Positions 10,138 to 37,526 of a DNA stretch of 39,405 nt are shown here, piece after piece (the stretch's first letter is position 1; every line of letters starts with the position of its first letter). The position numbers and the translations under genes were made by a program. Under the pieces are notes generated by a model that worked only from the letters and a program-made list of their open reading frames with translations, had not been told where the DNA came from and did no database searches. Source of the stretch: Alistipes sp. (GTDB lineage: Bacteria > Bacteroidota > Bacteroidia > Bacteroidales > Rikenellaceae). The stretch lies in NCBI GenBank assembly GCA_017408825.1, contig JAFQTX010000027.1, positions 1 through 39,405 on the forward strand, read 5' to 3'.

Positions 10138-10188
10138 AAAATGCGAATGAGCAGTACGCTTTAGTACAGCCCATCCGCATTTTTTTTG
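10138..10188 (+). terminator. Structured hairpin terminator after dxs
   Basis: ATGCG (10141-10145) pairs with CGCAT (10176-10180); ATG, GC and GTAC steps continue inward to a GCTTTA loop (10158-10163), separated by single mismatches. AAA before and a run of eight T after complete an intrinsic-terminator shape. The same architecture with a different outer stem follows kbl at 37480-37526. Confidence 0.75.
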
Positions 10189-10198
10189 CCGAGCGTTG

Positions 10199-10270
10199 TA
10201 TCTGCTACCTTCTGACAATAAATCCCTTTATCGTGATAAGGGGTCATCTGCGGCCTTCTGACAAGAAATT
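10199..10270 (+). repeat. Direct repeats of an ATCTGC/CCTTCTGACAA motif
   Basis: Two copies of ATCTGC..CCTTCTGACAA.AAAT lie about 47 bases apart, at 10199-10223 and 10246-10270. A related copy (ACATCTACGGCCTTCTG) occurs at 37542-37558. The second copy is preceded by TAAGG, as are the related motifs directly after dxs and kbl. Confidence 0.6.
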
Positions 10271-10304
10271 TGGTTCTGGGGCTGATTGAGGTTGCAGCGG
10301 GTTA

Positions 10305-10366
10305 TTTTTTAGGACCATTAAGACCATTAGGACCATAAGACCATTACGAGGTCGGGTACCACGCTG
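10305..10366 (+). repeat. Dispersed repeat copy made of 9-nt AGGACC/AAGACC units
   Basis: A T6 run is followed by consecutive 9-base units of the form TTAGGACCA or TTAAGACCA (one is shortened to 8), ending in TTACGAGGTCGGGTACCACGC. The same unit series and tail occur three times in tandem at 37744-37950. Confidence 0.75.
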
Positions 10367-10437
10367 CTGTTTCGGCCGTTGGCTGTTAGTTCTGTTGGCC
10401 GCAACCGCCTTAATTATCTTAGTGTCTCATTGTCGGG

Positions 10438-10519
10438 TTTAGGGAGATTAGGGAATTTAATGAAATTAGGGAGTTTAGTGATTATCCTTAATTTCCCTAA
10501 TCTCCTTAAACTCCCTAAA
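10438..10519. repeat. Long imperfect hairpin of 9-nt units
   Basis: The left arm reads in 9-base steps with GGGAG, GGGAA and ATGAA cores, the right arm in 9-base steps with CCCTAA and CCTTAA cores. The ends TTTAGGGAG (10438-10446) and CTCCCTAAA (10511-10519) are exact complements. The structure ends 18 bases before the glnA stop and would form at the 3' end of the leftward glnA transcript. Confidence 0.7.
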
Positions 10520-10537
10520 TTCTTTATCTTACAAGTA

Positions 10538-12040
10538 CTATCCGCAGTGGAAATACTTGTGTACGAGGGCGAGCATCTGCTCACGGTCGTTGCCGATGTC
10601 GCTACGAAGAGTGCGGTCATCAAACGAGCGCAACGACTTGATGATGCCATCTATCATCGCTGGGCTGAAGACTCCACGGCTCTCAAATATTGCTCGCTGA
10701 CGCTCAAGGCAGTCGGCCGAGGCGGCGCAGCTATCAGGCAGCTGTGCCAGACCCTTCAACTTATCCTCGTTCTCCTTGAGGTGGATATTCACGTTCACAT
10801 AGGTGCGCTCAGCGATATCGAGTGCATTGTCGAGCTCGAAGCCATAGCGGCAGGCAACAGCCAAGCCTGCGATAAGTTCATATACATCGGCAGAGCCATC
10901 TGGAGAGCGCATCTCCACGGTCTGCTTCTGCGAGGTGTCGTAGTGGCTATCACCCTCGAGAGGGTTGGCTATGCGGCACATATCGCTCTTTGCGGCCCAG
11001 CCAAGTGGTACACGCACCAATACCGAGCGGTTGCGGTCGCCCCAGCAGATATTTGTAGGCGCCTCCTGGTGTGGCACAAGGCGGAAGTATGACGTAGGAT
11101 TGGTGTTACCAAAGGCGGTGATTGATGGCGCAAGCTCCATCATACCTGCGATAGCCTTACGTGCAACGGGCGAGAGGAGACCATCTTGAAGCATCATATT
11201 TTTGCCATCCTTCATTATACGCATATGTATATGGAGTCCCGAGCCTGCCTTGCCTGCCGTAATCTTGGGCGCAAATGTCACGTCGAAGCCATAGCGATAT
11301 GCGAGGTTGCGGATGATCCACTTGGCGATGACAAGCTGGTCGGCAGCATCGGGGGCTGCTACGGGGAGGAACTCTATCTCGTTCTGCTCGTATGTTAGGC
11401 CGTCGTACGAGAAGTTACCCACCTCCGAGTGGCCATACTTGATCTGTCCGCCAGCCTGAGCGATGTAGGCCATACACTCGGTGCGGAACTCGTTGAACTT
11501 AGCATATGGTGCTGACTCGTGGTAGCCCCTCTGGTCGGTAGCAGGGAATAGGGCCTCCTCCTCGGCGATGACGTAGTACTCCAACTCTCCCATAGCCTCA
11601 AACTGCATACCTGTCACCTCCTCGAAGGCTGCGCACGCCTTAAGCAGTGTGTAGCGTGGTGCCGAGGCTAATGGCTCGCCATCCTTGTTGAAGAATGAGC
11701 AGAGCATTGTGAGCGTTGGGATCTCGGCAAAGGGGTCGAGGAAGGCGGTACTGAAGCGTGGCACTACGTATAGGTCGCTACTGCCCGCCTCGATAAACGG
11801 GAAGAGGCTCGAGCCATCAACACGCTCACCACAGCTGAGTATGGCATCGAGGTATGCTGCGTTGTTGATTACAAAGTTGAGCGTCTTAAGTCGCCCATCA
11901 CCCGCAGGATACATAAAGTTTACCATACGCACGTCATTCTCGGTGATGTAGCGTACGATGTCGGCCTTGGTGAACTCTCGTGCAGGCTTACCCAAGAAGG
12001 CAACCACCTTATTGGGGTTTAGTTCTAACTCTCGTTTCAT
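10538..12040 (-). CDS. glnA: Glutamine synthetase family protein (GS-I type)
   Basis: Predicted to make glutamine from glutamate, ammonia and ATP. At 500 residues it is in the GS-I size range. Recognisable parts are the beta-grasp region with YPAGDGRLKTLNF, ELEYYVI (metal-binding Glu), GSGLHIHM (ATP/metal His), NPTSYFRLVPHQEAPTNICW with the nearby arginine-rich GDRNRSVLVRVPLGW, and VEMRSPDGSADVYE. No NLYxLPPE-type adenylylation loop is visible in the C-terminal part, so control by GlnE is unlikely. It is leftward, downstream of yciH, and ends at repeat-rich DNA. A role as a GS-like ligase for another amine cannot be excluded from motifs alone. Confidence 0.87.
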   Translation of the reverse strand: MKRELELNPNKVVAFLGKPAREFTKADIVRYITENDVRMVNFMYPAGDGRLKTLNFVINNAAYLDAILSCGERVDGSSLFPFIEAGSSDLYVVPRFSTAFLDPFAEIPTLTMLCSFFNKDGEPLASAPRYTLLKACAAFEEVTGMQFEAMGELEYYVIAEEEALFPATDQRGYHESAPYAKFNEFRTECMAYIAQAGGQIKYGHSEVGNFSYDGLTYEQNEIEFLPVAAPDAADQLVIAKWIIRNLAYRYGFDVTFAPKITAGKAGSGLHIHMRIMKDGKNMMLQDGLLSPVARKAIAGMMELAPSITAFGNTNPTSYFRLVPHQEAPTNICWGDRNRSVLVRVPLGWAAKSDMCRIANPLEGDSHYDTSQKQTVEMRSPDGSADVYELIAGLAVACRYGFELDNALDIAERTYVNVNIHLKENEDKLKGLAQLPDSCAASADCLERQRAIFESRGVFSPAMIDGIIKSLRSFDDRTLRSDIGNDREQMLALVHKYFHCG

Positions 12041-12086
12041 ACTCTAATGTGTTATAAATATGTGTTTTATACTCTATGTTTAGGTG

Positions 12087-12440
12087 CTATCCTCCAGCCC
12101 TCTTGCAGCGGTAGCCTGCCTTGGTGAGAAGCTCCACTACACGGTCACGATGGTCGCCCTGAATGATTATCTCGCCATCCTTGGCCGTGCCTCCCACGCC
12201 GCAGCTCTTCTTAAGCTCCTTGCCCAGGGCTGCGAGATCGTCGGCGCTACCCACAAAGCCTCGTACGACAGTGGCCACACGCCCTCCCTTGAGACGGTCG
12301 AGCCATACACGTAGGTTTTGTCTCTCGGGAGCGAGGGTCTCTATCTGCTCATCGTCCGAGGTCTGAAATTGGTAGTCTGGGTTGGTAGAAAATACCACGC
12401 CAAGGCGATCTTTCCAATCGTTATCCATATATTTAGCCAT
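12087..12440 (-). CDS. yciH: SUI1/eIF1-like translation factor (YciH family)
   Basis: A 117-residue cytoplasmic protein of the SUI1 fold, related to eukaryotic eIF1, which monitors start-codon choice; bacterial YciH has been linked to initiation fidelity and stress translation. The second half carries the family core: RVWLDRLKGGRVATVV, a KELKKSCGVGGTAKDGEI segment and IQGDHRDRVVELLTKAGY, in the usual order. The N-terminal 40 residues are variable and polar. It lies 46 bases upstream of glnA on the same strand and is divergent from the DUF4435 gene; the gap between them is very AT-rich. Confidence 0.92.
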   Translation of the reverse strand: MAKYMDNDWKDRLGVVFSTNPDYQFQTSDDEQIETLAPERQNLRVWLDRLKGGRVATVVRGFVGSADDLAALGKELKKSCGVGGTAKDGEIIIQGDHRDRVVELLTKAGYRCKRAGG

Positions 12441-12493
12441 ATATATTATAGATATAATATAGATATAATTACGACAATATTGGTTAAAAAAGT

Positions 12494-13609
12494 ATGTCCA
12501 ATCACAAAGATATAAAAAATTTTTGTAACTTTACGTCTGTGAAACAGAATAAGCGAAATAGGCGTAGGCGTGATCTCACGTCGTACAATCCAAATAGGTT
12601 GCCCGATATTCTTCCTCCCGAGGACGATAGGCACCTTGTGCACGTATATGTCGAGGGTTACGAGGATGTGGCCTTCTGGCGTGGTATATTCGACCACTTT
12701 CGCAACCCATACTTGCGATTTGAAATATCGGTGCCCAATCGTGACGACCTGCCAAAGGGTAAGAAGGTGCTTATGTCGATGATCGGACGTACCGACCCCG
12801 AGCGTATTATTCTATGTGTGGACTCCGACTTCGACTATCTGTTCGATGGTGCTACGGAGCAGTCGCGAGAGCTCTTGGCAGCCGATAATATGTTTCACAC
12901 ATATGTCTATGCCACAGAGAACTATCTCTGTTATGCGCCATCGCTACGAAACGTGTGTGTCAAGGCTACGAAGAACGATACTCGCATCTTCGACTTCGAA
13001 AAATTCTTCGCTGAATACTCACGTATAATATATCCCCTCTTTTTGTGGTATGTCTACTCGGCGCAGCTCTCACACGAGAGTGTCTTTACACTCGCCGAGT
13101 TCAAGGCTTCGGTGCGCCTTGGATATGTCGATATTCGTCATAATGGTGAGAGTACGTTGGCCTGGTTGCAGCGCAATGTGGAGCGTAGGGTGCAGTCGCT
13201 CGAGCGCGACAATGCCACGATGATTGGTGAGGTGGCGGACTTTGGCCAGAAGCTCAAACTTAGAGGTGTGGAGCGTGATAACTGCTATATGTTTATGCAC
13301 GGCCATACGCTGATGGATAATGTTGTGCTGGTGGTACTTACATCGGTGTGCGACAAGCTAAGACAGCTCTCCATTGCAAAGATTAATGGCTCGAAGGTGG
13401 AGGGCGTAGCACTTAAAAACGAGCTACAAAACTATACAAACACCCTACGATCAATTCGTGATGTGCTACTCGACAACGAAAACTATACCTCCTCGCCCCT
13501 TTATAAGCGTCTGCGTGACGACATTCAACAGTATCTGGATGTGATGATTACACGCATCAAACAACGCCAAGAGCCAGAGGTGATGCTCAGGTGTAATTTT
13601 GAACCGTAA
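12494..13609 (+). CDS. DUF4435 domain protein
   Basis: The 371-residue product matches the DUF4435 pattern as remembered: an early HVYVEGYEDVAFWRGIF segment, then ERIILCVDSDFDYLFDG, which together resemble the acidic clusters of a TOPRIM-type fold, and an ATENYLC segment. This family is often found beside ATPases in defence or repair loci, but no ATPase is adjacent here; the flanks are yciH and an AraC regulator. Biochemical role unknown. The start is uncertain: ATG at 12494 is preceded by little leader, while a -7-like TAACTTTAC at 12526-12534 and a GTG at 12539 lie just inside, and the first 15 residues look unlike the conserved body. Confidence 0.72.
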   Translation: MSNHKDIKNFCNFTSVKQNKRNRRRRDLTSYNPNRLPDILPPEDDRHLVHVYVEGYEDVAFWRGIFDHFRNPYLRFEISVPNRDDLPKGKKVLMSMIGRTDPERIILCVDSDFDYLFDGATEQSRELLAADNMFHTYVYATENYLCYAPSLRNVCVKATKNDTRIFDFEKFFAEYSRIIYPLFLWYVYSAQLSHESVFTLAEFKASVRLGYVDIRHNGESTLAWLQRNVERRVQSLERDNATMIGEVADFGQKLKLRGVERDNCYMFMHGHTLMDNVVLVVLTSVCDKLRQLSIAKINGSKVEGVALKNELQNYTNTLRSIRDVLLDNENYTSSPLYKRLRDDIQQYLDVMITRIKQRQEPEVMLRCNFEP

Positions 13610-13815
13610 AGTGGTTTTTTAATCACACAAAAATATCTATAAATATAAGTTTTGCAACCTTTTATAGAGGCAAAAAGACCCGAAAATAAAATAATTTGCA
13701 CACTTTTTTAATGTTTTACACTAAAACTGCTTGTAAATTAATTTTATTTGCGTATATTTGTGTGCTGAATTATAGATATATTTGATAAAAGATAACCATA
13801 AAACTACTTAAACTT
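13610..13815. promoter_or_regulatory. Upstream region of the AraC-type gene with two -7 boxes
   Basis: A 206-base AT-rich gap. TATATTTG occurs at 13753-13760 and again at 13777-13784; both match TAnnTTTG. For the first, CTTG at 13730-13733 lies 19 bases upstream, the expected -33 spacing. Close to the DUF4435 stop a short GTGGTT/AATCAC stem (about 13612-13627) could be a weak terminator. Confidence 0.55.
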
Positions 13816-14688
13816 ATGTCAAACCAGTGTCCAGCAACCTGCCATTCTTATACGGTGGAACCCGAAGCCGGTTTCAGCCTTATTACCCTGAAAGAGGGAG
13901 AGAAGCTCATTGTTGACCGAGGTGATTATAACAGTTTATTATTCCTCCTTGCTGGTAATTTTGAGATTACCTCTGAGGAGCGTCGTGAGTATGTAGTTCG
14001 TGAGCACCACTTCGTATTCTGCTTCCGTGCATACCACTATGAGATAACAGCACTCACTGATGTCGAGATCATCAAGGCTCACTTTATAACTGCCGGTGCT
14101 ACCTGCGATATGATCCCATTCAACAGCATCGTGGGTAAAATCAAGAAGATAAACTACAAATTTACTCAGGTGGCATTTAACGATGCACTCGACCTATTTA
14201 TGCGCACCATGCGCCTATACCTGCTCAATAATATGCACTGCAACCACCTGCATAGAGCAAAGATACAGGAGATGTTCGTAATTTTCAAGTTCTTCTACAC
14301 GCCTCAGATTCAGTTGCGCACCTTCTACAACTTGTTTGATCGCAACCAGTCGTTCGCATCGCTTGTGCGTAACAACGCACCACGTGTTAAGACCGTCGAG
14401 GAGCTTGCCGACATCTGTGGTTTCAGTATTCAGCACTTCAACAATATGTTCAAGCAGGAGTTCCACGACACTCCATATAGCTGGATGCAGAAGCAGCGTA
14501 TCGTGGAGATCGAGCGCCTTTTGACCGAGACCAACGTGCCGCTGAAGAGCATCATCAAGATGTATAGCTTCACCAACCACGGCCACTTTGCCCTCTTCTG
14601 TCGCAAGTATCTAAAGAAGACTCCGCTTAAGATCCGCAAGGAGGCCCGTGCCTTGAAGGAGGCTGCTGCCGCCGCTGCCGCAGAGTAG
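13816..14688 (+). CDS. AraC-family transcriptional regulator
   Basis: A 290-residue DNA-binding regulator. The N-terminal half (about 1-175) is predicted to be a cupin-like sensor fold (EGEKLIVDRGDYNSLLFLLAGNF), the C-terminal part two helix-turn-helix units: VEELADICGFSIQHFNNMFKQEF and LKSIIKMYSFTNHGHFALFCRKYLKKTPL, the latter being the classic AraC signature. The protein ends in an alanine run. Ligand and targets are unknown; this type in Bacteroidales often controls transport or envelope genes elsewhere in the genome. It stands alone between its own promoter region and a strong terminator. Confidence 0.88.
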   Translation: MSNQCPATCHSYTVEPEAGFSLITLKEGEKLIVDRGDYNSLLFLLAGNFEITSEERREYVVREHHFVFCFRAYHYEITALTDVEIIKAHFITAGATCDMIPFNSIVGKIKKINYKFTQVAFNDALDLFMRTMRLYLLNNMHCNHLHRAKIQEMFVIFKFFYTPQIQLRTFYNLFDRNQSFASLVRNNAPRVKTVEELADICGFSIQHFNNMFKQEFHDTPYSWMQKQRIVEIERLLTETNVPLKSIIKMYSFTNHGHFALFCRKYLKKTPLKIRKEARALKEAAAAAAAE

Positions 14689-14732
14689 TTGAGTGTATTA
14701 CGGCGTTAGAGATTCAACCTCATGACAAATGT

Positions 14733-14770
14733 GGGGATGACTAATTTACTTTTAGTCATCCCCGTTTTTT
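14733..14770 (+). terminator. Strong intrinsic terminator after the AraC-type gene
   Basis: GGGGATGACTAA (14733-14744) pairs perfectly with TTAGTCATCCCC (14752-14763), loop TTTACTT, then G and six T residues. The 12-bp stem ends transcription 45 bases after the stop codon and separates this gene from ricT. Confidence 0.9.
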
Positions 14771-14814
14771 GTATGTTTCTCTGAGCGACACTTCCGTTTT
14801 TCACTTTTTTTGCG

Positions 14815-14823
14815 TATCTTTAC
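14815..14823 (+). promoter_or_regulatory. Probable -7 box of the ricT operon
   Basis: TATCTTTAC differs from the Bacteroidetes -7 consensus TAnnTTTG at the last consensus base only. It lies 52 bases before the ricT start, after the preceding terminator. The leader also contains a small GGTGC/GCACC hairpin near 14840-14853. Confidence 0.45.
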
Positions 14824-14874
14824 GCCGAGAAGTATATATGGTGCACCTGCACCTAACGATAATATTGATTTACG

Positions 14875-16275
14875 ATGAGTTGTAATAAGAAACATGCTCC
14901 CGAGATGGGACGTGGATGCGCATTCTGTGACTGTGGCAACGAGCTTGAGGCTTGTGCTGTCGAAGGGTGCTATAAGCTCCACGAAACCAACTGGTTGGAG
15001 GAGTATCCCGATAATATACCGACGGACATATTTGAGGTGAGATTTAAGAATACACGACGCTCATACTACCAGAATGTCAATAACCTGGAGCTTAAGCGTG
15101 GTGATATCGTGGCCGTAGAGGCGCAGCCAGGTCACGACATCGGCATCATATCGCTGACGGGCGATATGGTGGCTAAGCAGATGCGTCGTGTGGGCTTCAA
15201 CCCCCACAACGGAGAGTTCAAGAAGATATACCGCAAGGCTCGCCCATACGACATCGAGCGCTGGCAGGAGGCCATAGCCTTAGAGCACGAGACGATGATC
15301 GCTTCACGTCAGATTGCTGCCGACATGGGTCTTAATATGAAGATTGGCGATGTTGAGTATCAGGGAGATAGGCTAAAGGCAATATTCTACTACATCGCCG
15401 ATGAGCGTGTCGATTTCCGAGAGCTTATAAAGGTGTTCGCAGAGCGTTTCCGCATACGCATCGAGATGAAGCAGATTGGTGCTCGTCAGGAGGCTGGCCG
15501 CATTGGTGGCATCGGCGCTTGTGGCCGTGAGCTATGCTGTGCATCGTGGATGTCGAGTTTCTCGAGTGTGACGACAAATGCCGCACGTATGCAGGAGATA
15601 TCGCTCAACCCACAGAAGCTGGCTGGTCAGTGCTCGAAGTTAAAGTGCTGCCTGATGTACGAGTACGACGTTTATGCCGATGCCCGCCGCACAATACCTC
15701 GTCTACGTGAGCCACTTCAGGCCCTCGATGGCGAGTACTTCCTCGTGAAGGTAGACCCTCTGGCACAGACAATGTCGTTCTCAACGAGCAAGAACTCGAT
15801 AGTGAACTTCACAACGCTATCTATCGACCGTGTTAAGGAGATCATAGCACTCAACCGTGCGGGCCAGAAGGTAGAGACCCTTGTGGGCGACGACGATGAG
15901 AGCGTTGTTGAGGAGCCTACATATCGTCATGCTGAGGATAGCATCACACGTTTCGACAATAAAAACAAGCGCTCTAAGCGTTCGAAGCGTCGTTCGAAGG
16001 ATCGTGGCGAGCAGGGTGAGGGTGCTGCGGGGCAGCCTGAACAGCCTAAGCAGGAGGCAGCAACCACTGAGCCTAAGGCTGAGGGCGAGGTTGATGCTAA
16101 GCCCGAACGTAAGCCTCGTGAGGAGCGCCAGCGTAACAACCGTAAAAACAACCGACACCACAAGCACAATCGTGGTGATGGCCGAAACCCCCAGAGCGAC
16201 CCAAGGGGCGAAACAAGGGGTGAGACAAGGAGCGAGACAAGGGGTGAGACGAGTGGTGAGGCAAAGAGTGAGTAG
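14875..16275 (+). CDS. ricT: RicT/PSP1-domain protein
   Basis: PSP1-family protein of 466 residues. In Bacillus, RicT (YaaT) with RicA and RicF forms an iron-sulfur complex that affects RNase Y-dependent mRNA processing and development; whether that holds in Bacteroidales is not established. The core (about 40-310) has the expected segments GDIVAVEAQPGHDIGI, VDFRELIKVFAERFRIRIEMKQIG and IGACGRELCCASW, with the conserved cysteines, then LKCCLMYEY. Four more cysteines lie near the N-terminus (GCAFCDCGNELEAC). The last 120 residues are a lysine/arginine/glutamate-rich tail ending in short RGET-type repeats. It leads a rightward operon with gldH, trmB and rlmD; RicT beside GldH is a recurrent Bacteroidetes arrangement. 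Confidence 0.9.
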   Translation: MSCNKKHAPEMGRGCAFCDCGNELEACAVEGCYKLHETNWLEEYPDNIPTDIFEVRFKNTRRSYYQNVNNLELKRGDIVAVEAQPGHDIGIISLTGDMVAKQMRRVGFNPHNGEFKKIYRKARPYDIERWQEAIALEHETMIASRQIAADMGLNMKIGDVEYQGDRLKAIFYYIADERVDFRELIKVFAERFRIRIEMKQIGARQEAGRIGGIGACGRELCCASWMSSFSSVTTNAARMQEISLNPQKLAGQCSKLKCCLMYEYDVYADARRTIPRLREPLQALDGEYFLVKVDPLAQTMSFSTSKNSIVNFTTLSIDRVKEIIALNRAGQKVETLVGDDDESVVEEPTYRHAEDSITRFDNKNKRSKRSKRRSKDRGEQGEGAAGQPEQPKQEAATTEPKAEGEVDAKPERKPREERQRNNRKNNRHHKHNRGDGRNPQSDPRGETRGETRSETRGETSGEAKSE

Positions 16276-16278
16276 TGT

Positions 16279-16710
16279 ATGATGCAGATAGCTAAATATT
16301 TGGTTGCAGCACTCTTTGTGGTGTTGTGCTCGGCGTGTGGCGGTAGTAGCCGTAGTGTCGAGATGCACGACCAGCCATCGGTAGTGTGGGACTCGGCAGA
16401 GGAGTTCACATACGACAATAGTGATACGCTATATCGTCGTAACATCTCGATAACGGTGCGCTATGACGGCAAGATGACTGCCGAGAGTGTGCCAATGAAG
16501 ATACTCACCGTATCGCCTGACTCTATGGTGCTCGAGGAGGATTTCACTCTGCGCATACCACAACTTGCCGATATGCGCCCCGAGGAGCATACGTTTATCT
16601 ACCGCAAGGGTGTGCTGCTCAAGCGACGTGGCGAGTATATGTTCCGTCTTACGCCCTTAGAGCCTGTCGAGGGTATCGCTTCGGTGGGTATCATCGTTGA
16701 TGAAAAGTAG
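16279..16710 (+). CDS. gldH: GldH-family lipoprotein
   Basis: A 143-residue lipoprotein: MMQIAKYLVAALFVVLCSAC puts the modified cysteine at residue 20. The mature part has the beta-rich character of GldH, including SAEEFTYDNSDTLYRRNISITVRYDG and HTFIYRKGVLLKRRGEYMFRLTP near the end. GldH is needed for gliding motility in Flavobacterium, but homologues are widespread in non-gliding Bacteroidales, where the role is unknown. It begins three bases after ricT. Family assignment rests on the length, C-terminal segment and the ricT neighbour; a second ATG one codon in is an equally possible start. Confidence 0.8.
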   Translation: MMQIAKYLVAALFVVLCSACGGSSRSVEMHDQPSVVWDSAEEFTYDNSDTLYRRNISITVRYDGKMTAESVPMKILTVSPDSMVLEEDFTLRIPQLADMRPEEHTFIYRKGVLLKRRGEYMFRLTPLEPVEGIASVGIIVDEK

Positions 16711-16739
16711 GCGTACAACCTAAGAAAAATTGTTGCCCA

Positions 16740-17492: not shown

Positions 17493-17503
17493 CTAAGCGA
17501 ACT

Positions 17504-18913: not shown

Positions 18914-18933
18914 GGTGGCATCTACTAACCGCC
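18911..18933 (+). repeat. Copy of the TAAGG..GCATCTAC motif at the convergent stops
   Basis: TAAGGTGGCATCTACTAACC begins at the rlmD stop codon and also covers the stop of the convergent DUF6371 gene. It resembles the motifs immediately after dxs (10108-10126) and kbl (37453-37473), but lacks the following hairpin. Confidence 0.45.
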
Positions 18934-19875
18934 AGCCAGCAAGTCGGCAATATCGCCGCCTGAGTTTGGGATATTGCGCTGGATAAAGTCCGACACCGAG
19001 TAGCGGAAATGCACGCTGCGGGCGATAGGCTCGATACGGCGTGTCCACTCCTCGTAGCCACGACCCTCATCGGGGAAGAGTATAACATCTCGCCCATTTA
19101 GCGCATAGAGTCGCTCGGCGCATAGCCCTGTCATCGAGTCGAGGGCTACCCACACCATCTCGGGCATTAGTGCCGAGCCTATATGTGCGGTCTTGGCACC
19201 TTCGCATAGTGCCACAATATCCTCCTTGCGTCGCTCCAAGAGGCTCTCGCCATAGAGACACTGCACCAAGTTCCACCCTTCGGGCAGTGCGCCCTCACGT
19301 CGCATAACGCTATGCGCCCAATCTATGAGTTGCTCCTCGCCCTTAAGTCGCTTGCCTGTGGCGGGGTCGAAGTTCATAATCTTGCCTGTGCGGGCATTTC
19401 CCACGCTGTCCACCTGCCAGAATATCGCTGCGTTGCTACCATCCTCTAATACCACGCCACCGATGTGGTAGTCGGCGATAATCTGCTCGGCGGTATAACG
19501 ACCTAAGGTGTTGCGCAACCACTGCTTGTAGTCGCAATCTACCGAGAGCGTGCGCTCGACAAACCACCACGGTATGGTGCCGATGCCCTGAGGCTCATGT
19601 ACAGGTGTACATACATACAAATTCCTATTGTTCTGTATGTATGTACAATCTTTATCCTTTAACCAAGGATTATCCTCAAAGTACATACGTGGGGTATAGT
19701 GATAACCACACTTATCAAGACGGTTACACTTACCAACCTTATCATTGACATACATATTATTATTATGAGTGTCAATGTAACGAGTAAACACCTGTTTACG
19801 ACCACACTGTGGGCACACGTGACGTGTAGCACGACCACGATACTTCTCAAGTTGATATCTATAATTATTATTCAT
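18925..19875 (-). CDS. DUF6371-like zinc-finger/TOPRIM primase-like protein
   Basis: From ATG at 19873-19875 the product has 316 residues. The N-terminus carries a probable zinc finger (CPQC at 21-24, then C50 and C56, the latter as KCNRLDKCGYHY), similar in style to CHC2 primase fingers. Further on, VALCEGAKTAHIG resembles the TOPRIM first-glutamate motif, and ILFPDEGRGYEEW the following acidic motif (D-x-G instead of D-x-D). SGGDIADLL ends the protein. This is the layout of DUF6371 proteins seen on Bacteroidetes mobile elements. It follows the RepA-like ATPase gene, so a replication primase role is inferred. The first third is AT-rich with a perfect palindrome inside the coding sequence (19606-19647); the rest resembles the genome. 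Confidence 0.75.
   Translation of the reverse strand: MNNNYRYQLEKYRGRATRHVCPQCGRKQVFTRYIDTHNNNMYVNDKVGKCNRLDKCGYHYTPRMYFEDNPWLKDKDCTYIQNNRNLYVCTPVHEPQGIGTIPWWFVERTLSVDCDYKQWLRNTLGRYTAEQIIADYHIGGVVLEDGSNAAIFWQVDSVGNARTGKIMNFDPATGKRLKGEEQLIDWAHSVMRREGALPEGWNLVQCLYGESLLERRKEDIVALCEGAKTAHIGSALMPEMVWVALDSMTGLCAERLYALNGRDVILFPDEGRGYEEWTRRIEPIARSVHFRYSVSDFIQRNIPNSGGDIADLLAGG
19606..19647. repeat. Perfect palindrome inside the DUF6371 gene
   Basis: TGTACATACATACA (19606-19619) and its exact complement TGTATGTATGTACA (19634-19647) flank a 14-base loop. The arms are the same sequence as those of the palindrome at 19895-19935. Confidence 0.85.
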
Positions 19876-19894
19876 ATTGATATATATATTTAGT

Positions 19895-19935
19895 TGTACA
19901 TACATACAATACATAGGGTTTTGTATGTATGTACA
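19895..19935. repeat. Perfect palindrome between the ATPase and DUF6371 genes
   Basis: TGTACATACATACAA (19895-19909) and TTGTATGTATGTACA (19921-19935) are exact complements around an 11-base loop. It lies in the 69 bases between the ATPase stop codon and the DUF6371 start, so it would form a hairpin in the shared transcript, or a DNA site for a dimeric or iteron-type protein. Confidence 0.85.
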
Positions 19936-19944
19936 TTTGTACAA

Positions 19945-29149: not shown

Positions 29150-29150
29150 A

Positions 29151-29945: not shown

Positions 29946-29951
29946 AGTCTA

Positions 29952-30221: not shown

Positions 30222-30225
30222 AATT

Positions 30226-31116: not shown

Positions 31117-31118
31117 AG

Positions 31119-33713
31119 TTACTCGATATTTTGGTTTTTAACTCTGCCTCGCACAGCGAAATATATCGCTGCGACAAGAGCAAGCAGAATGGCTACTGAT
31201 GAGATTGCCGTGATGGTTGTTGTCCAGCTCCAGCCTGGTGCTCGGAACCTCCACTCTACGGTGTGCTTACCCGCAGGAAGCTCCATAGCTCGCAGGGCGT
31301 AGTTGGCAGCGAAATAGTTACTTGGCTCGCCATCTATCGTTACGCTCCAGCCCTCGGGGAAGTAGATCTCGGAGAATACGCAGAGCGCCTCGGCAGGTGC
31401 GTCGTACTCATATTTGAGGTAGTTGGGAGCATACTCCGTAAGCGATATTGTGCCCGTGGCGTCGTACATTGGCTCAAGGCCTACGACGCTCTCCGACACC
31501 ACAGCCTTGCTGCGCAGGTCTACATACTCCAATGCCTCAAGCTCCTTGGCTGGTGTAGGCTGAGTGTATGCACCCTCAACAAACCACGCTGCGCCAAGAG
31601 GCTCTACTCCATAGGCGTCGGCAAGTGTTATAACCCTACCTCCGTCAATGATGTAACGGGTGTTGAGCATGGCCAATACTGCGCCACTCTCACGATAGAT
31701 ATAGCGCTCTAAAAGCTCTTGATAGCGGCCGAGCTTTGCGCCATGGTAGCCATCTACCGAGCGGTGGAAATATGCTGCGGTGGCTGTGCCGCTATGGTCG
31801 ATGTCAAAGACACGATAGCCGAGCTCCTTATCCTCGAGAATTTGGCGGTTGGCCTCCGATGGAGTTAATACTGTAGGCTTGCCTGTACGCCACTTGTCCT
31901 CGTTGAGATAGCGCTCGCCAACGCCCACAAGGTCGGCCGAAACAACTGTGATGATTGCGGCAAAGGCAACATACGCCACCCACTGTCTGTCGCCCTTATG
32001 CTCACGCAGCCATCCGTAGAGGATGACGATACCCGCAGTAACTGTTACGTAGAGCATCGAGCGCCATACATCGCTGTGCATAGCGTCGTGACGTGCGGTA
32101 TAGGCTGCCTCCTTAAGTTGCTCCACCCACCACTCGTCACCGAGCTGAGCGTTAATATCGGCAAGACCGTAGTCGGCCGTAATAATCATTATAACCACGA
32201 GGAGCATTACAATGCCGTAGGCGGCGCTCACACGCTGCACAAGACTCTTGTATGAGGGTTTGTCGCTCCATATGCGCCATAGGGCAACGGCGGCAAGCAG
32301 TGGCACGGCCCACTCCAACACCACAAGAGCCATAGAGACTGTGCGGAAGCTACTATAGCCGGGGAGGATGTCGTACATAAGCTCGTAGAAGCCCATAAAG
32401 TTCTTACCCCACGCCAGGAGCAACATAAACAGCATCGAGGCCACAATCCACCAGCGGTCGCGCCCCGAAGCATACATCATACCCAGAAGCGCCAAGAAGA
32501 TGGCCGCAGCACCGAGATATGTAGGACCTGCGGTAAAGGGCTGCTCACCCCAGTAGTTCGAGGCGTAGGCCTCAGCCTTGCGAGCCTCTCTATCGGCAAG
32601 CTCATAGACCAACGAGAGTAGCTCCTCGTCGCCCGCCTCGATAGCCTCGAGAACGTGATCTGGAGTCATCTCGGGGATGTATTGGCGGTAGATCTCGGCA
32701 GCCTCCGTAATGGCTTTGCGGAGGATAGCATCATTGAAGCCTCCACCCTTAAGTATGTCGATAGCCTTATCGTTAAGGTCGCCTGACCAGCGTCCCATAT
32801 AGTCGGGAACAAGCATATTGAAGCTCTCTGCCTTGCCGTAGCTCCACTCGGTGTTATAGGCAATCTTGCGCTCACGGGCCTCATCCTCCGACACAGCCTC
32901 GGCAACACCTCGAGTGGTGTATTTCTGGTGCTTGAACGTATACCATAGTGGCGAGAAGTTAGAGCCTAAGGCGAGGAGCGCAGCGGCAGCCAATAGTAGC
33001 GTCGTGCGACCAAACTTGCCAAGAGTCTTATCCTTAATTGCAAACCATAACTCGCTGAGCCATAATGTGGCGGCCACAATCAAGAAGTAGTAGGTTATCT
33101 GTGGATGGTTAGCGCCGAGCTCCAACGAGCCAAAGAGCGCAGCGAGTGCAGCACCAAGCCAACCATTTTTGCGTAGGGCATACCACACCGAGGCGATGAG
33201 TGGTGGGGCATATACCAGTGCCCACATCTTGGTGATGTGTCCTGCGTCGATGACCAAGAAGAAGTAGGTGGATAGTCCGTAGGCCAGACCTGCGATGATG
33301 CCTATCCATGGGTTAAGGCCCATAAGCACCACGGCGACCATCATCAGCAGCATCGCAAAGAGCGTCATATTCATCGGGCTGTCTATGATCTTCACTGTGC
33401 TGCCCACGCTCTGCTTAACATACTGTGTGGGGTACTCCACGTCGATAAGATAGGCGGGCATGCCCGAGAACATATTTCCTGTCCACTGAGGGTCCTCGCC
33501 CGTGGCCGCACGATGATCCTTGATATCCTTTGACATTCCGGCATATTGAGCAATATCGCCCTGACCGAGTGACTTGCCATCAAACTGTGGTGCGTAGAAC
33601 AGGAGCGATACAGCTGTGAAGAGTGCAATACCCGTAATCCACGGTAGTAGCATCTTGCCAAAGCGTTGCATATTATTGCGAGCATTCGAGCCCTTAACGT
33701 CGTTCGAAACCAT
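31119..33713 (-). CDS. Large YfhO-family membrane protein
   Basis: An 864-residue integral membrane protein with about twelve or more hydrophobic segments and a soluble C-terminal domain ending in one last helix. Related to YfhO, a GT-C-fold group whose Firmicutes members glycosylate lipoteichoic acid; the role in Bacteroidetes is not defined. Features: FYAPQFDGKSLGQGDIAQY after the first helix, a loop with TGNMFSGMPAYLIDVEYP, a large extracytoplasmic insertion (about 260-390), and the C-terminal beta-domain ending ICFPEGW-like (here IYFPEGWSVTIDGEP) that is typical of the family. It is the first gene of the leftward envelope/tRNA cluster and has a -7 box upstream. Confidence 0.85.
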   Translation of the reverse strand: MVSNDVKGSNARNNMQRFGKMLLPWITGIALFTAVSLLFYAPQFDGKSLGQGDIAQYAGMSKDIKDHRAATGEDPQWTGNMFSGMPAYLIDVEYPTQYVKQSVGSTVKIIDSPMNMTLFAMLLMMVAVVLMGLNPWIGIIAGLAYGLSTYFFLVIDAGHITKMWALVYAPPLIASVWYALRKNGWLGAALAALFGSLELGANHPQITYYFLIVAATLWLSELWFAIKDKTLGKFGRTTLLLAAAALLALGSNFSPLWYTFKHQKYTTRGVAEAVSEDEARERKIAYNTEWSYGKAESFNMLVPDYMGRWSGDLNDKAIDILKGGGFNDAILRKAITEAAEIYRQYIPEMTPDHVLEAIEAGDEELLSLVYELADREARKAEAYASNYWGEQPFTAGPTYLGAAAIFLALLGMMYASGRDRWWIVASMLFMLLLAWGKNFMGFYELMYDILPGYSSFRTVSMALVVLEWAVPLLAAVALWRIWSDKPSYKSLVQRVSAAYGIVMLLVVIMIITADYGLADINAQLGDEWWVEQLKEAAYTARHDAMHSDVWRSMLYVTVTAGIVILYGWLREHKGDRQWVAYVAFAAIITVVSADLVGVGERYLNEDKWRTGKPTVLTPSEANRQILEDKELGYRVFDIDHSGTATAAYFHRSVDGYHGAKLGRYQELLERYIYRESGAVLAMLNTRYIIDGGRVITLADAYGVEPLGAAWFVEGAYTQPTPAKELEALEYVDLRSKAVVSESVVGLEPMYDATGTISLTEYAPNYLKYEYDAPAEALCVFSEIYFPEGWSVTIDGEPSNYFAANYALRAMELPAGKHTVEWRFRAPGWSWTTTITAISSVAILLALVAAIYFAVRGRVKNQNIE

Positions 33714-33740
33714 ACTTTACTTATATAGACAATTACCGCC

Positions 33741-33748
33741 CAAAGGTA
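33741..33748 (-). promoter_or_regulatory. -7 box for the YfhO-ftsX-uppP-truB operon
   Basis: Leftward TACCTTTG (33748-33741) exactly fits TAnnTTTG, 28 bases before the start of the YfhO-type gene. Spacing of 0-10 bases or small overlaps through ftsX, DUF3098, uppP and truB fits one transcript. Confidence 0.6.
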
Positions 33749-33842
33749 CGAAAAATTTACGAAAAAATAAAAAACAGCAAAAAAAGAGCGAAATGATATG
33801 CAGATTGTTGTGTTATGTAGGGTGATATTCCCAAAATTTCGT

Positions 33843-33850
33843 TACCTTTG
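33843..33850 (+). promoter_or_regulatory. -7 box for the polyprenyl synthase gene
   Basis: Rightward TACCTTTG matches the consensus and lies 20 bases before the ATG. It is divergent from the box at 33741-33748, with about 95 AT-rich bases between them. Confidence 0.6.
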
Positions 33851-33870
33851 CGTGATATAATACATTTACA

Positions 33871-34887
33871 ATGGTTACAATCGACTCTATACGCAAACCC
33901 ATAACCAAAGATATGGAGGCCTTCGAAGCATTCGTCGCTGAGAATATCTCTGCCGAAGGTGACCTTATGCACGAGATGCTGACCTATGCCCTCACCTCAC
34001 GAGGTAAGGGTGTGCGCCCAATGCTCACAATGCTCACAGCCTCGATGATGGCGGCAGATGACGGTGTTGTAAATGAGGAGTGTGGCTCGGAGCGCCACTG
34101 CTCGAAGCGCACATATTTGGCGGCAATGCTCATAGAGATGATTCATACCGCATCGCTTATCCACGACGATGTGCTCGACTCGGCAGATGAGCGCCGTGGT
34201 CGCCCCTCGGTGAATGCTAAGTGGCAGAGCGATATGGCGATTATACTTGGAGACTATATCCTCGCTCGCACAATGTCGATAGGTATGGCCTCGGCGCAGT
34301 ACGACCTGCTCTCATATGTGGGCTCGTCGATGGCAACACTCTGCGAGGGTGAGGTGCTGCAAAGCCAGCACGCCCGTAATTTTGATACCACACGTGAGGA
34401 CTACTACCATATCATCAACCAGAAGACAGCAAGCCTCTTAGGTGTGAGTGCTGCAATGGGTGCGCTCTCTGTTGGAGCTTCACGTGAGGATGTGGACCGT
34501 ATGCGTAAGTTTGGCGAGGCGATAGGTATGGCCTTTCAAATCCAAGACGACATCCTCGACTACAACCGCCAAAACAACACTGGCAAGCCTGCAAACAACG
34601 ACCTGCGTGAGCATAAGATGACCCTTCCGCTTATCGAGGTTATGGAGCGTAAGTCGGAGGAGGAGCGTCGCGAGATCGTCGAGCTTCTAAAGGTGTGCGA
34701 TAAGGATGAGACGGCTGTGGATAGACTTCAGGCAATAGTCGATGAGAATGGCGGCCGTGAGCTTGCGGCTCAGACCATGCAGGCATACTTGGCACGTGCT
34801 ATGCACCTTTTGGCAAAGTATCCCGACACGCCATACCGTATGTCGTTGATGAACCTCTGTGCGTATATCGCAGAGCGTGATAGATAA
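33871..34887 (+). CDS. Polyprenyl diphosphate synthase
   Basis: Trans-isoprenyl diphosphate synthase that lengthens allylic chains with isopentenyl diphosphate. The 338 residues contain both aspartate-rich motifs: LIHDDVLDSADERRGRP (DDxxD, with the paired arginines) and FQIQDDILDYN. The residues before the first motif (EMIHTASL) are small or medium, which fits a long-chain product such as an octaprenyl tail for menaquinone rather than a short C15 chain, but product length cannot be fixed from this. TGKPANNDLREHKMTLPLI is also typical. It is divergent from the YfhO cluster and 31 bases upstream of the sugar transporter. Confidence 0.92.
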   Translation: MVTIDSIRKPITKDMEAFEAFVAENISAEGDLMHEMLTYALTSRGKGVRPMLTMLTASMMAADDGVVNEECGSERHCSKRTYLAAMLIEMIHTASLIHDDVLDSADERRGRPSVNAKWQSDMAIILGDYILARTMSIGMASAQYDLLSYVGSSMATLCEGEVLQSQHARNFDTTREDYYHIINQKTASLLGVSAAMGALSVGASREDVDRMRKFGEAIGMAFQIQDDILDYNRQNNTGKPANNDLREHKMTLPLIEVMERKSEEERREIVELLKVCDKDETAVDRLQAIVDENGGRELAAQTMQAYLARAMHLLAKYPDTPYRMSLMNLCAYIAERDR

Positions 34888-34918
34888 TTGACAATCAATA
34901 AATTAAACCAATACTATT

Positions 34919-36208
34919 ATGAGTACACAGAAAAAAAGTAACGTGTTGGCTATTATCGTGATGATTCTCTTGTTCGGAATGATCTCGTTCGTTACCAACC
35001 TCGCATCGCCTATGGGTGATGTGCTTAAGAACCAGTTTGACGTGGCTAACTGGATGGGTACACTCGGCGTATTTGCCAATTTCATTGCCTATGCTTGTAT
35101 GGGTATCCCCGCAGGTAATCTTCTTCAGAAGCGTGGCTACAAATTTACCGCTTTAGCTGCCGTAGCTGTCGGCTTCACAGGTGTTGGCGTGCAGACCATC
35201 GCAGGTTTGTTGGAGGGTAATGTTGCCTTTGGCGTATATCTCCTCGGTGCATTTATCGCAGGTTTCTCGATGTGTATGCTTAACATCGTGGTTAATCCTA
35301 TGCTTAATAAGCTCGCTGGTGGTGGTAATCGTGGTAACCAGCTACTTCAGGTGGGTGGCTCGTTTAACTCGTTTATGGGTACTGCCGTAATCTTCCTCAC
35401 AGGTGTGTTTGTGCCAAGCATCGCTGATGCTCAGATCAAGCAGGTATTCCCATTGATGTACATCGCTTTGGCAATCTTTGCTCTTGCATTTGTTGTTATC
35501 CTATTCACCAATATTCCAGAGAATGAGCGTGTTGAGGCAGCTAAGGGCGAGGAGTCTAAGATCGGCCCTATGTCGTTCCGTCACTTCGTGTTGGGTGCTG
35601 TGGCTATCTTCATCTACGTAGGTGTTGAGGTAGGTATTCCAAACGTGTTGCAGAAGTGGTTGCAGAATGGTGGCCTTTCGGTAGAGACTGGTGCTGAGGG
35701 TATTGCTGCAACAGTGGCTGCTACCTACTGGTTGCTAATGTTCTTTGGCCGTTTGTTGGGTGCTGCCCTTGGTGCTAAGGTGTCGGCTAAGGCGATGCTT
35801 ACCTCGGTATCACTCATCGGTATGGCACTTGTGTTGGGCGCTATGATGCTCAACCCTGAGATATCTGTAAACCTCCCAGTATTCAAGGGTACTGATGGCT
35901 TTGGCATGGCTCAGGTGCCTATCAACGCTGCATTGCTCGTATTGTGCGGCTTGTGCACATCGGTAATGTGGGGCGGTATCTTCAACCTTGCAGTTGAGGG
36001 CTTGGGTAAGTACACTGAGCGTGCTTCGGGTATCTTTATGGCACTCGTATGTGGTGGCGGTATCCTCCCATTGCTCCAGAATGGTATCGTAGACTGGACA
36101 AACAACTACCTCGTAAGCTACTGGGTAATCGTTGCAGGCCTTGCATACCTGCTCTTCTACGCCTTGGTAGGCTCGAAGAACGTGAACAAGGATATCAAGA
36201 CCGAGTAA
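34919..36208 (+). CDS. FHS-type sugar MFS transporter (FucP/GluP-like)
   Basis: A 429-residue, 12-helix major facilitator of the fucose/glucose/galactose:H+ symporter group. The GFSMCMLNIVVNPMLNKLAGGG-type region (here NIVVNPMLNKLAGG) and the following GNQLLQVGGSFNSFMG are the family's recognisable helices 4-5; MGIPAGNLLQKRGYK is the helix 2-3 loop. The sugar is not predictable. It lies between the polyprenyl synthase and kbl genes, 31 and 46 bases away, with no obvious metabolic link. Codon choice (GGT, GCT, CGT) is like that of kbl and suggests high expression. Confidence 0.85.
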   Translation: MSTQKKSNVLAIIVMILLFGMISFVTNLASPMGDVLKNQFDVANWMGTLGVFANFIAYACMGIPAGNLLQKRGYKFTALAAVAVGFTGVGVQTIAGLLEGNVAFGVYLLGAFIAGFSMCMLNIVVNPMLNKLAGGGNRGNQLLQVGGSFNSFMGTAVIFLTGVFVPSIADAQIKQVFPLMYIALAIFALAFVVILFTNIPENERVEAAKGEESKIGPMSFRHFVLGAVAIFIYVGVEVGIPNVLQKWLQNGGLSVETGAEGIAATVAATYWLLMFFGRLLGAALGAKVSAKAMLTSVSLIGMALVLGAMMLNPEISVNLPVFKGTDGFGMAQVPINAALLVLCGLCTSVMWGGIFNLAVEGLGKYTERASGIFMALVCGGGILPLLQNGIVDWTNNYLVSYWVIVAGLAYLLFYALVGSKNVNKDIKTE

Positions 36209-36254
36209 TTCAGAACATAATTCCAATAAAACTATAACTAAAACTTTTACTACA

Positions 36255-37442
36255 ATGTACGGAAAATTTCAGCAGCATTTGCAGAACGAGCTAGCCGAGA
36301 TTAAGGCTGCCGGCTTGTACAAAACTGAGCGCATCATCGAGTCACCACAGCGTGCCGAGATTGACGTGGCTAACCGCCCCGTGTTGAACTTCTGCGCTAA
36401 TAACTACCTCGGCCTTTCGGACAACCAGCGCCTTATCGACGCAGCTAAGAAGGCTATGGACGAGCGTGGCTTTGGTATGTCATCAGTACGCTTTATCTGC
36501 GGCTGCCAGGATATGCACAAGGAGCTTGAGAAGGCTATCGCTGACTACTTCGGCACTGAGGATACTATCCTCTACGCTGCTTGCTTCGATGCTAACGGTG
36601 GTGTATTCGAGCCATTGTTCACTGCCGAGGATGCTATCATCTCGGATGCTTTGAACCACGCCTCTATCATCGACGGTGTACGTCTTTGCAAGGCCCAGCG
36701 CTACCGCTACGCTAATGCCGATATGGCAGAGCTCGAGGAGTGCTTGAAGCAGGCTCAGGCACAGCGTTTCCGCATCATCGTTACCGATGGTGTATTCTCA
36801 ATGGATGGTAACGCTGCTCCACTCGACAAGATTTGTGAGTTGGCCGAGAAGTATGACGCTCTCGTTATGGTCGATGAGTGCCACTCTGCTGGTGTTCTTG
36901 GTAAGACCGGTCGTGGTATCACCGAGCTCTACGACCTTCGTGGTAAGGTAGATATCCTCACAGGTACTCTCGGTAAGGCATTTGGTGGTGCTGTGGGTGG
37001 CTTCACAACTGGCCGCAAGGAGATCATCGATATGCTCCGTCAGCGCTCACGTCCTTACCTCTTCTCTAACTCGCTTCCACCTGCCGTTGTGGGTGCCTCT
37101 ATCGAGATGTTTAAGATGTTGGAGGAGAGCGATAAGCTCCACGATCAGCTCGTTGCTAACGTTGAGCACTTCCGCACTAAGATGATCGCTGCTGGCTTCG
37201 ATATCAAGCCTACACAGTCGGCTATCTGCGCCGTTATGCTCTACGATGCTAAGCTCTCACAGGACTTCGCTGCTGAGCTCCAGCAGGAGGGTGTATTCGT
37301 AACAGGCTTCTACTACCCAGTAGTTCCAAAGGGTCAGGCTCGTATCCGTGTTCAGGTATCTGCTGGCCACACTACCGAGCAGCTTGACCGTTGCGTTGAG
37401 GCATTCGTTAAGGTTGGTCGTAAGCTTGGCGTCCTCAAGTAA
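36255..37442 (+). CDS. kbl: Glycine C-acetyltransferase (2-amino-3-ketobutyrate CoA ligase)
   Basis: PLP-dependent alpha-oxoamine synthase; Kbl splits 2-amino-3-ketobutyrate with CoA into glycine and acetyl-CoA in threonine breakdown. The 395-residue length and segments VLNFCANNYLGLSDN, SSVRFICGCQDMHKELE, DECHSAGVLGKTGRG and TGTLGKAFGGAVGG (PLP Lys241) follow Kbl closely. Threonine dehydrogenase (tdh), its usual partner, is not in this window. Serine palmitoyltransferase, a related enzyme important for Bacteroidales sphingolipids, is an alternative, but the GTLGKAFGG and CGCQDMHK context favours Kbl. The gene is followed by a structured hairpin and the largest repeat region. Confidence 0.9.
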   Translation: MYGKFQQHLQNELAEIKAAGLYKTERIIESPQRAEIDVANRPVLNFCANNYLGLSDNQRLIDAAKKAMDERGFGMSSVRFICGCQDMHKELEKAIADYFGTEDTILYAACFDANGGVFEPLFTAEDAIISDALNHASIIDGVRLCKAQRYRYANADMAELEECLKQAQAQRFRIIVTDGVFSMDGNAAPLDKICELAEKYDALVMVDECHSAGVLGKTGRGITELYDLRGKVDILTGTLGKAFGGAVGGFTTGRKEIIDMLRQRSRPYLFSNSLPPAVVGASIEMFKMLEESDKLHDQLVANVEHFRTKMIAAGFDIKPTQSAICAVMLYDAKLSQDFAAELQQEGVFVTGFYYPVVPKGQARIRVQVSAGHTTEQLDRCVEAFVKVGRKLGVLK

Positions 37443-37479
37443 TTTTCGATTATAAGGCCGCATCTGTGACCTCTCAATC

Positions 37480-37526
37480 ATTGCCCCGAATGGGAAATAC
37501 GCCAAGTATGTCCCATCCGGGGCAAT
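37480..37526 (+). ncRNA. Structured hairpin after kbl, homologous to the one after dxs
   Basis: ATTGCCCCG (37480-37488) pairs with CGGGGCAAT (37518-37526); an A-C mismatch follows, then ATGGGA with TCCCAT, another mismatch, and ATAC with GTAT around a GCCAA loop (37501-37505). The dxs copy has the same order and the same A-C mismatch but a different outer stem. Unlike it, this copy has no T-run. It may be a 3'-end stabiliser, terminator or a mobile structured element. Confidence 0.65.

Follow-up and report, generated by a model that had tools for sequence, protein, structure and literature searches.

The window analysed here is a stretch of 39,405 bp from Alistipes sp. (assembly GCA_017408825.1, contig JAFQTX010000027.1, positions 1 to 39,405 of the forward strand), in which an initial annotation, made from the letters alone, had noticed two similar hairpins, one behind dxs and the other behind kbl. 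Both gene names are backed by NCBIfam (TIGR00204, 716.7 bits, for dxs; TIGR01822, glycine C-acetyltransferase, 685.5 bits, for kbl). The hairpins lie at the coordinates claimed and fold as claimed (Table 1): the dxs hairpin, of 46 nt, reaches -18.0 kcal/mol (z -6.1) and the kbl hairpin, of 47 nt, -29.6 kcal/mol (z -6.8), and in neither case is any of 200 shuffles as good. They start 30 (dxs) and 37 (kbl) bases after the stop codon, close to the 31-38 given earlier, and the letters said to be common to both are present, as are the paired changes between them (ATGCG/CGCAT to GCCCCG/CGGGGC, and GTAC/GTAC to ATAC/GTAT). The hairpins are thus structured and repeated, as had been proposed, but their extent had been underestimated, since they represent only the inner third of longer palindromic units, of 127 bp after dxs and 126 bp after kbl, whose outer arms covary too. 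Each unit is composed of outer arms pairing with one another and of an inner hairpin, with similar apexes in both units. Folded as RNA, the whole units reach -47.7 kcal/mol (after dxs) and -52.6 kcal/mol (after kbl), with z about -7. The start of unit 1 encodes the final residues and the stop codon of dxs (..SLLNLL*).

Table 1. Features associated with the two palindromic units of the window, and loci of the genome of origin carrying the longer repeat described in the text (ORF, open reading frame)
Feature	Position	Strand	Details
Unit 1 (type A), 127 bp, 3' of dxs	10097..10223	+	Outer arms ATTTATTGT / ACAATAAAT
Stop codon of dxs (TGA), inside unit 1	10105..10107	+	ORF 8251-10107; TIGR00204
Inner hairpin of unit 1	10138..10183	+	Apex GTACGCTTTAGTAC
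Short "solo" unit	10227..10269	+	Outer arms only, without inner hairpin; read by eye
One copy of the third module, behind unit 1	10305..10379	+	Direct-repeat family D3; 67% identity to reference copy
Stop codon of kbl (TAA), directly at the start of unit 2	37440..37442	+	ORF 36255-37442; TIGR01822; model offset +5
Unit 2 (type B), 126 bp, 3' of kbl	37442..37567	+	Outer arms ATTTTCGATTAT / CTCAAAAAT
Inner hairpin of unit 2	37480..37526	+	Apex ATACGCCAAGTAT
Palindromic minisatellite module behind units	37568..37694 (limits approximate)	+	GGGGATTATGGGG / CCCCAGTATCCCC; common to many arrays
Third module, three tandem 75-bp copies	37745..37969	+	TTTTTAGGACC..GAGGTCGGGTATCACG..; direct-repeat family D3
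Loci with the ~250-bp repeat			L012, L013, L014, L015, L019, L020, L021, L022, L029, L031, L034

Both units belong to a large family. A covariance model, R1, built from 24 type A copies, matches unit 1 at 10093-10227 (145.8 bits, E 1.4e-35) and unit 2 at 37438-37571 (82 bits, E 3.8e-18). In the whole genome of origin (1.89 Mb), it matches at least 104 places at E up to 0.1, after removal of 24 of the 128 matches as mirror-strand matches of the same places. A 101-base query gives 43 matches in this genome at E up to 10, and a scan with the outer-left-arm pattern TAATTTN6ATAAGG finds 45 places, as compared to 1 for the reversed control. The repeat number is far beyond chance, and the further copies of the same structure that the two hairpins led one to expect do exist. 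The 104 places comprise 69 first or single units, 20 second or later units, 11 units embedded in a repeat of about 250 bp, and 4 partial ones. Within a common outer frame, whose helix is paired in 92.9, 96.7 and 98.0% of cells in three covariation analyses, the units, of about 126-130 bp, enclose different inner hairpins, named type A (as in unit 1), type B (as in unit 2), type C and others. Tandem arrays are common, with later units of the same or of a different inner type, and solo units comparable to the one behind unit 1 stand behind full units in L016 and L041. Two particular cases were observed among these loci: a chimeric unit in L043 (reverse strand, around 840-864), which passes at its apex from type B (left half) to type A (right half), and a different terminator-like hairpin in L041 (reverse strand, 1054-1081), which resembles the units in its apex (GGGCTGTACCGTTGAGAGTACAGCCC) and precedes a T run.

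The limits of the unit emerge from the comparison of its most similar copies. The 89 units with sufficient flank yield 105 pairs with an identity of 90% or more, the 250-bp type being excluded. The match frequency in these pairs is about 0.3 upstream, then 0.78 and 0.80 at a TA dinucleotide, 0.98 and 1.0 at the A and the first T of the following ATTT, and drops to 0.2-0.6 behind the unit. These results show where the left boundary lies, and the boundaries of unit 1 were drawn from such near-identical pairs. In one of them (C8:24536 and C35:8291), the units are 97.8% identical while the flank identities are 0.23 and 0.17, the unit alone being in common. As expected of miniature inverted-repeat transposable elements (MITEs), the units are shorter than 200 bp, without room for a transposase gene, carry terminal inverted repeats, occur as many dispersed, discrete copies with unrelated flanks (104 places), and are present or absent at the ends of kbl, dxs, g615, g4778 and g17423 according to the genome.

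Furthermore, the units are located at stop codons, in a fixed orientation. A unit typically starts with ATTT behind the TA of the stop codon, and in one orientation relative to the gene. When the stop of the longest upstream sense ORF is considered (crude ORF calls), 61 of the 69 first units of the genome of origin have it between model offsets -6 and +22: 42 have exactly TAA followed by TTT (+5), 12 a stop at -6 to +4, 5 a TGA within the unit at +15, and 2 a stop at +6 to +22. The remaining eight comprise five at -119 to -133, that is one unit length behind the stop, which are probably second units after an undetected first one, one at -21, and two without a called ORF. The same placement is observed in nine other genomes, for which 40 loci were taken from the best listed R1 matches and 42 units scoring at least 115 bits were retained, 45 of 87 matches being dropped as below this score or on the mirror strand. 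In this set, a stop is located between -6 and +15 for 35 of the 42 units (19 at +5), four lie about one unit length behind a stop, two have it at -11 and -18, and one has none; at the mirrored place, a stop is found in 1 of 42. In 76 kb of sequence, none of 26 TAATTT hexamers outside elements ends an open frame of at least 80 codons. The genes bearing an element (stop at -6 to +5) end with TAA in 52 of 54 cases, versus 31 of 57 long ORFs in the same 76 kb (Fisher P 1.5e-7), and some units of other genomes stand behind TAG or TGA (L272, L273, L281).

The R1 matches lie almost all within the genus. In a first sample, the 25 same-genus genomes (the genome of origin being one of them) have between 0 and about 80 R1 hits each, 12 having at least one, and the 16 genomes of other families have none. 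The covariance-model search of Alistipes and Bacteroidales proposed by the initial annotation was then extended to a larger sample, in which R1 matches 90 of 180 same-genus genomes, own included, and a single one of the 294 genomes from the rest of the order; the two genomes listed from the same family but another genus have none. In GTDB 220, an exact pattern is found in five contigs, all from metagenome-assembled genomes (three of Alistipes sp. from ruminant colon, two of Rikenellaceae bacterium). The single outside match (G321, L300), in another family of the order, consists of tandem units, the first of which has outer arms of the same kind (ATATTGATTATAAGAGGTCATCT ... TATCTAACCCCTTCTAATCAATAT), a different inner hairpin, and begins exactly at the TAA of a 412-codon ORF. 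An assembly artefact was rejected, the copies being found in many independent assemblies with flanks differing where checked. In G054, sixteen listed copies are 91-95% identical to one unit of the genome of origin, whereas coding matches in the same search are 69-87% identical; such a pattern would be expected from recent spread of a mobile unit, and strong constraint could contribute to it.

Orthologous gene ends were compared next to one another, as gene ends and not as base-exact empty sites, and they differ in the presence of units. For kbl, matched in 58 genomes, 30 loci were read: the 15 closest have a unit directly after the stop in ten cases and none in five, the type being B in the genome of origin, A in G056 and C in G011, and no unit is seen in the 15 more distant ones. 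After dxs, the genome of origin is alone in having a unit among 20 loci read, and its Dxs protein ends with SLLNLL*, the last residues being encoded by the unit, versus SLLSLLNE* in the closest relative. At g615 (94-97% protein identity), units are found only in G017 among nine genomes read. At g4778 and g17423, units of different kinds are found in part of the relatives, the others showing either a plain terminator or neither of the two; the g4778 protein of the genome of origin and of G060 is without a residue that follows NLW in the others, its TAA lying at the unit start. As a separate observation, the sequence and genes downstream of the same stop codon often differ between related species (L237 compared to L240-L259), and gene ends may be rearrangement breakpoints.

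To which strand the conserved structure belongs was addressed with an alignment, A4, of 41 units from ten genomes (2 of the 42 units of the nine-genome set being left out). On the sense strand, 26 of 42 pairs change on both sides, and the covariation score is 0.364, as compared to 0.091 for shuffles (0/500 as high) and at most 0.066 for slid controls. The covariation seen between the two hairpins thus extends to further copies, with a score above all 500 shuffles and every slid control. The antisense consensus has 52 pairs, 31 of which change on both sides, with a score of 0.375 versus 0.117 when shuffled (0/500); on both strands, such counts are inflated by the kinship of the sequences, and the structure was predicted from the same alignment. 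The predicted energies show that the antisense strand folds better. Its consensus energy is -77.07 kcal/mol versus -47.98 for the sense strand, and it is the more stable strand in 41/41 A4 units (mean -69.7 versus -57.0), in 23/24 own-genome units of type A and 11/11 of type B, in 87 (RNA parameters) or 89 (DNA parameters) of 95 own-genome units, in the three units of type C, and in the distant relative G321 (-64.5 versus -43.6). G-U is found in only 9 of 1,688 paired cells of the sense strand. This scarcity had been read as a sign of pairing at the DNA level, an idea that was dropped as G-U pairs are found on the opposite strand (187 in some 2,091 paired cells, with 121 falling at three near-invariant pairs). 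The A-C oppositions kept on the sense strand (columns 56/85 in 40/41 units, 60/81 in 17/41) are such G-U pairs; the kept A-C mismatch of the initial annotation is therefore present in the sequence of both hairpins, but it is no mismatch on the strand that folds better. Likewise, a TC/TC step in the arms corresponds to a tandem G-A (AGAT/AGRT) on the antisense strand, and, by a loose motif count, both arms have it in 36/41 units of A4, 20/24 of A1 and 5/11 of A2 (type B). Because of the better antisense fold and of the G-U pairs located there, the strand under structural constraint appears to be, according to these models, the antisense one with respect to the upstream gene, which could act either in RNA form or as single-stranded DNA.

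We consider it likely that the family consists of non-autonomous, palindromic, MITE-like mobile repeats of about 126-130 bp, which have spread through Alistipes and are inserted at stop codons. The family would be moved by an enzyme acting in trans, perhaps TA-targeting, as proposed for ERIC and RUP. TA precedes ATTT in 51/71 and 23/40 units (10 of 121 units being not scorable), and a TA target duplication is possible. The insertion step itself would place new units at stop codons in one orientation, since 96-98% identical units with unrelated flanks already stand at stops, selection after insertion being the main rival to such a targeted placement. Inserted units could assume, at the 3' end, the function of the native intrinsic terminator, as suggested by compared gene ends that bear an element and no native terminator. 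Further units, of the same or of another inner type (A, B, C or others), often stand behind the first.

Several points weigh against insertion of mobile units at stop codons. No transposition was seen, and no autonomous partner with matching ends was recognised among the loci examined, whole genomes not being searched for it; unpaired arms, which could have betrayed an autonomous element, were also sought, without any convincing result. A TA is directly behind AAAT in only 4/71 units (16/71 one base further) and 12/40, so that a target duplication is not clean, and no base-exact empty site could be aligned, because the species are too far apart between genes. Second-unit pairs in arrays have their upstream unit in common too, and some pairs also the module behind. 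As the same intergenic regions carry other common repeats and rearranged neighbours, recombination between gene ends could also spread units. R1 misses other types (for example L237:10716-10854), and all counts are for this reason lower bounds. Finally, the exact placement does not hold for the 250-bp type, the repeat copies of which are nearly identical and often at contig ends, with ends like AGGCTGAATAAAAAG / CTTTTTATTCAGCCT (CAACCT in some) enclosing a type A hairpin: 7 of 11 lie 28-74 nt behind the called stop, one has called stops 114 and 184 nt upstream, and three, at contig ends, have none.

The best surviving alternative, which we nevertheless hold to be distinctly unlikely, is that the units are a host 3'-end element, that is an inherited terminator or mRNA 3' structure homogenised by gene conversion, which has to begin at the stop codon, for instance since the base of the hairpin is opened by the terminating ribosome, and whose position is kept by selection. 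The units do occupy the sites of native terminators of relatives: a terminator-like hairpin within 130 nt is found in 18/39 ends scored element-free and 0/22 scored element-bearing, or 18/41 versus 0/20 once two ends without units, misflagged by a regular expression, are corrected. The scan used here, limited to loops of 3-8, is blind to the units' own long hairpins, a point that counts against the mobile-repeat reading; in the window, its single match is a weak one near dxs, located behind the units, the kbl region giving none. In addition, the next gene could be called for 64 first units, and it is convergent for 40 of them and tandem for 24, the other 5 of the 69 having no called gene next to them (crude ORF calls, no background). 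An inherited structure is however at odds with the patchy copy number in the genus (0 to about 80 per genome among 25), with close relatives carrying other types or none at the same gene end, with near-identical units despite unrelated flanks, and with a better fold on the antisense strand, which is not that of the gene's mRNA. Moreover, the hairpin is tolerated 28-74 nt away from the stop in the seven 250-bp-type units mentioned above, which argues against a strict need for the exact position.

It is very unlikely that the covarying arms result from quasi-palindrome correction by template switching, and not from selection on structure or from mobility. Such a correction could account for the outer arms of L275, which are perfect where other A4 rows have mismatches, and for the almost exclusively two-sided changes of the top strand (216 versus 7 one-sided cells). 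It would nevertheless be expected to erase imperfections, which are kept here (the A-C at 56/85 and the TC/TC step of type A units, an argument that is weaker in type B), and it would favour neither strand, whereas the antisense one folds better in 87/95 and 41/41 units.

Just as improbable is an origin from REP/RAYT or IS200/IS605 elements moved by a Y1 (HUH) transposase: palindromic, orientation-specific, numerous copies with an asymmetry of the folded strand would fit it, but Y1_Tnp (PF01797) has no match in the 31 genomes searched, of which 15 have a completeness of at least 90%, whereas 5 of 14 named control genomes match, so that this origin was rejected, in agreement with the initial annotation, which had not recognised a REP element. 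Nor had it recognised a known RNA family, and Rfam 15 indeed gives no window match at gathering score, the two units having only sub-threshold matches, weak microRNA ones and one weak sRNA one, far below the cut-off; a known RNA was rejected on this basis. A retroelement was rejected as well, because the distribution of RVT_1 does not track that of the units: it has no match in the element-rich genomes G118, G119 and G129 (94-98% complete) and matches in several genomes without R1 matches. Two exact patterns have no match in viral contigs, and the stretch with unit 1 has none in phages and plasmids, which led us to reject phage or plasmid cargo. The window contains no tRNA. The proposal that the hairpins are part of a structured element, functional or self-propagating, is thus supported by the copies, the covariation, and the negative Rfam and Y1 results.

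A more specific possibility, on balance unlikely, is that of an element homing to stop codons. Its working form would be the folded antisense strand, as single-stranded DNA or as an RNA copy, recognised by its G-U pairs, its tandem G-A step and its apex, and an enzyme that is neither Y1 nor a detected reverse transcriptase would insert it, always in the same orientation, where the DNA is open at the ends of transcribed and translated genes. With such homing, the G321 relative at a TAA in another family would make the stop-codon rule older than the genus.

The stop preference, base-exact in most copies and orientation-fixed, is visible at some sixty gene ends in a single genome and also in the nine others that were sampled, and this makes the choice between targeted insertion and selection after insertion directly testable. 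If insertion does target stop codons, this would be a new targeting principle; if it does not, the units would be portable 3' ends replacing terminators. The strand asymmetry, for its part, points to the strand worth seeking in RNA or DNA experiments.

Other repeats are located in the vicinity of the units. Behind many arrays, the modules follow one another in a similar order, with the GGGGATTATGGGG/CCCCAGTATCCCC minisatellite and a 75-bp AGGACCATTAAGACC..GAGGTCGGGTATCACG module, as observed in the window (37568-37969 and 10305-10526) and at many loci. The third, 75-bp module of the window is also found behind many other arrays, and these modules look like additional 3'-end repeats. Elsewhere in the window, ORF 2883-5057 contains nine register copies of a tandem repeat (3739-5052), mostly with a 126-base (42-codon) period, and at 19598-19943 lies an inverted repeat of 31 bp whose arms, 87% complementary, are 284 bases apart.

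Among known systems, integron attC sites are also hairpins directly behind stop codons, in gene orientation and with a structured bottom strand, and their R'/R'' core sites are GTTRRRY and RYYYAAC. The Alistipes units are alike in these three respects, the structured strand being that opposite to the gene, but they stand at core genes (dxs, kbl) and not at cassettes, and GTTGTA misfits GTTRRRY. An attC origin was rejected as both GTTGTA and GCTAAC misfit by eye (A1, A4) and the context differs.

Porphyromonas gingivalis belongs to the same order as Alistipes. Its BrickBuilt element is, like the arrays described here, a MITE combined with a minisatellite, but according to the part of its description available it lies 49-591 nt from the nearest coding sequences and is made of 23-nt repeats (PMC4596501). 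The units resemble ERIC and MITEPlu5, palindromic MITEs of enterobacteria (127 and 123 bp), in their length (126-127 versus 127 bp), their fold into a single long imperfect hairpin, their numerous dispersed copies and a TA beside the left end. They differ from them by being mostly stop-anchored in one orientation, by their tandem arrays, by several inner hairpin types per outer frame, by the lack of a clean TA duplication and of sequence similarity in E. coli; ERIC itself was rejected, because a search of 20,395 E. coli records with unit 1 (word size 11, E up to 0.01) gave no match. In the text available, MITEPlu5 has IS630-like ends and a TA target (PMC6267812), ERIC-like MITEs are tied to IS630 ends and TA targets (PMC6267812, PMC2229807), and ERICs at gene 3' ends influence transcript levels in Yersinia (PMC10969869, PMC2229807). 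By analogy, an IS630-type link would be a lead for the Alistipes units, and not a test.

Two other repeats share the 3' location. QMITE2 of Coxiella burnetii, as far as its partial description goes, is a MITE located mainly 3' of ORFs, with C-terminus overlaps of a few bases, a preference whose reason is unknown according to its authors; it differs by a GTAG REP and variable 7-11 nt duplications, and exact stop anchoring is not stated in that text (PMC5896051). SPRITE of Streptococcus pneumoniae, similarly described in part, is a terminator-like repeat enriched near gene 3' ends and between convergent genes; it differs by its 18-bp duplex with a U-rich tract and its 30 copies in the genome studied, and exact stop anchoring is again not stated in the text available (PMC3049150). 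Structured RNAs reported from human microbiomes include, in the accessible part of the report, palindromic Bacteroidetes candidates (PMC8040213). At title and abstract level, in mostly open-access literature without supplementary files, no published description of the family was found. Palindromic MITEs at gene 3' ends are already known (ERIC, QMITE2, SPRITE). What the available parts of PMC8040213, PMC10969869, PMC2229807, PMC2267715, PMC3049150, PMC4596501, PMC5896051, PMC6267812 and PMC2759123 do not describe is stop anchoring with fixed orientation across species, interchangeable inner hairpins, or an antisense fold. As newly seen here, the Alistipes units combine base-exact stop anchoring in fixed orientation across species, inner hairpins that are interchangeable in arrays, and a fold of the antisense strand, and these features set them apart from known MITEs as the latter are described in the texts available.

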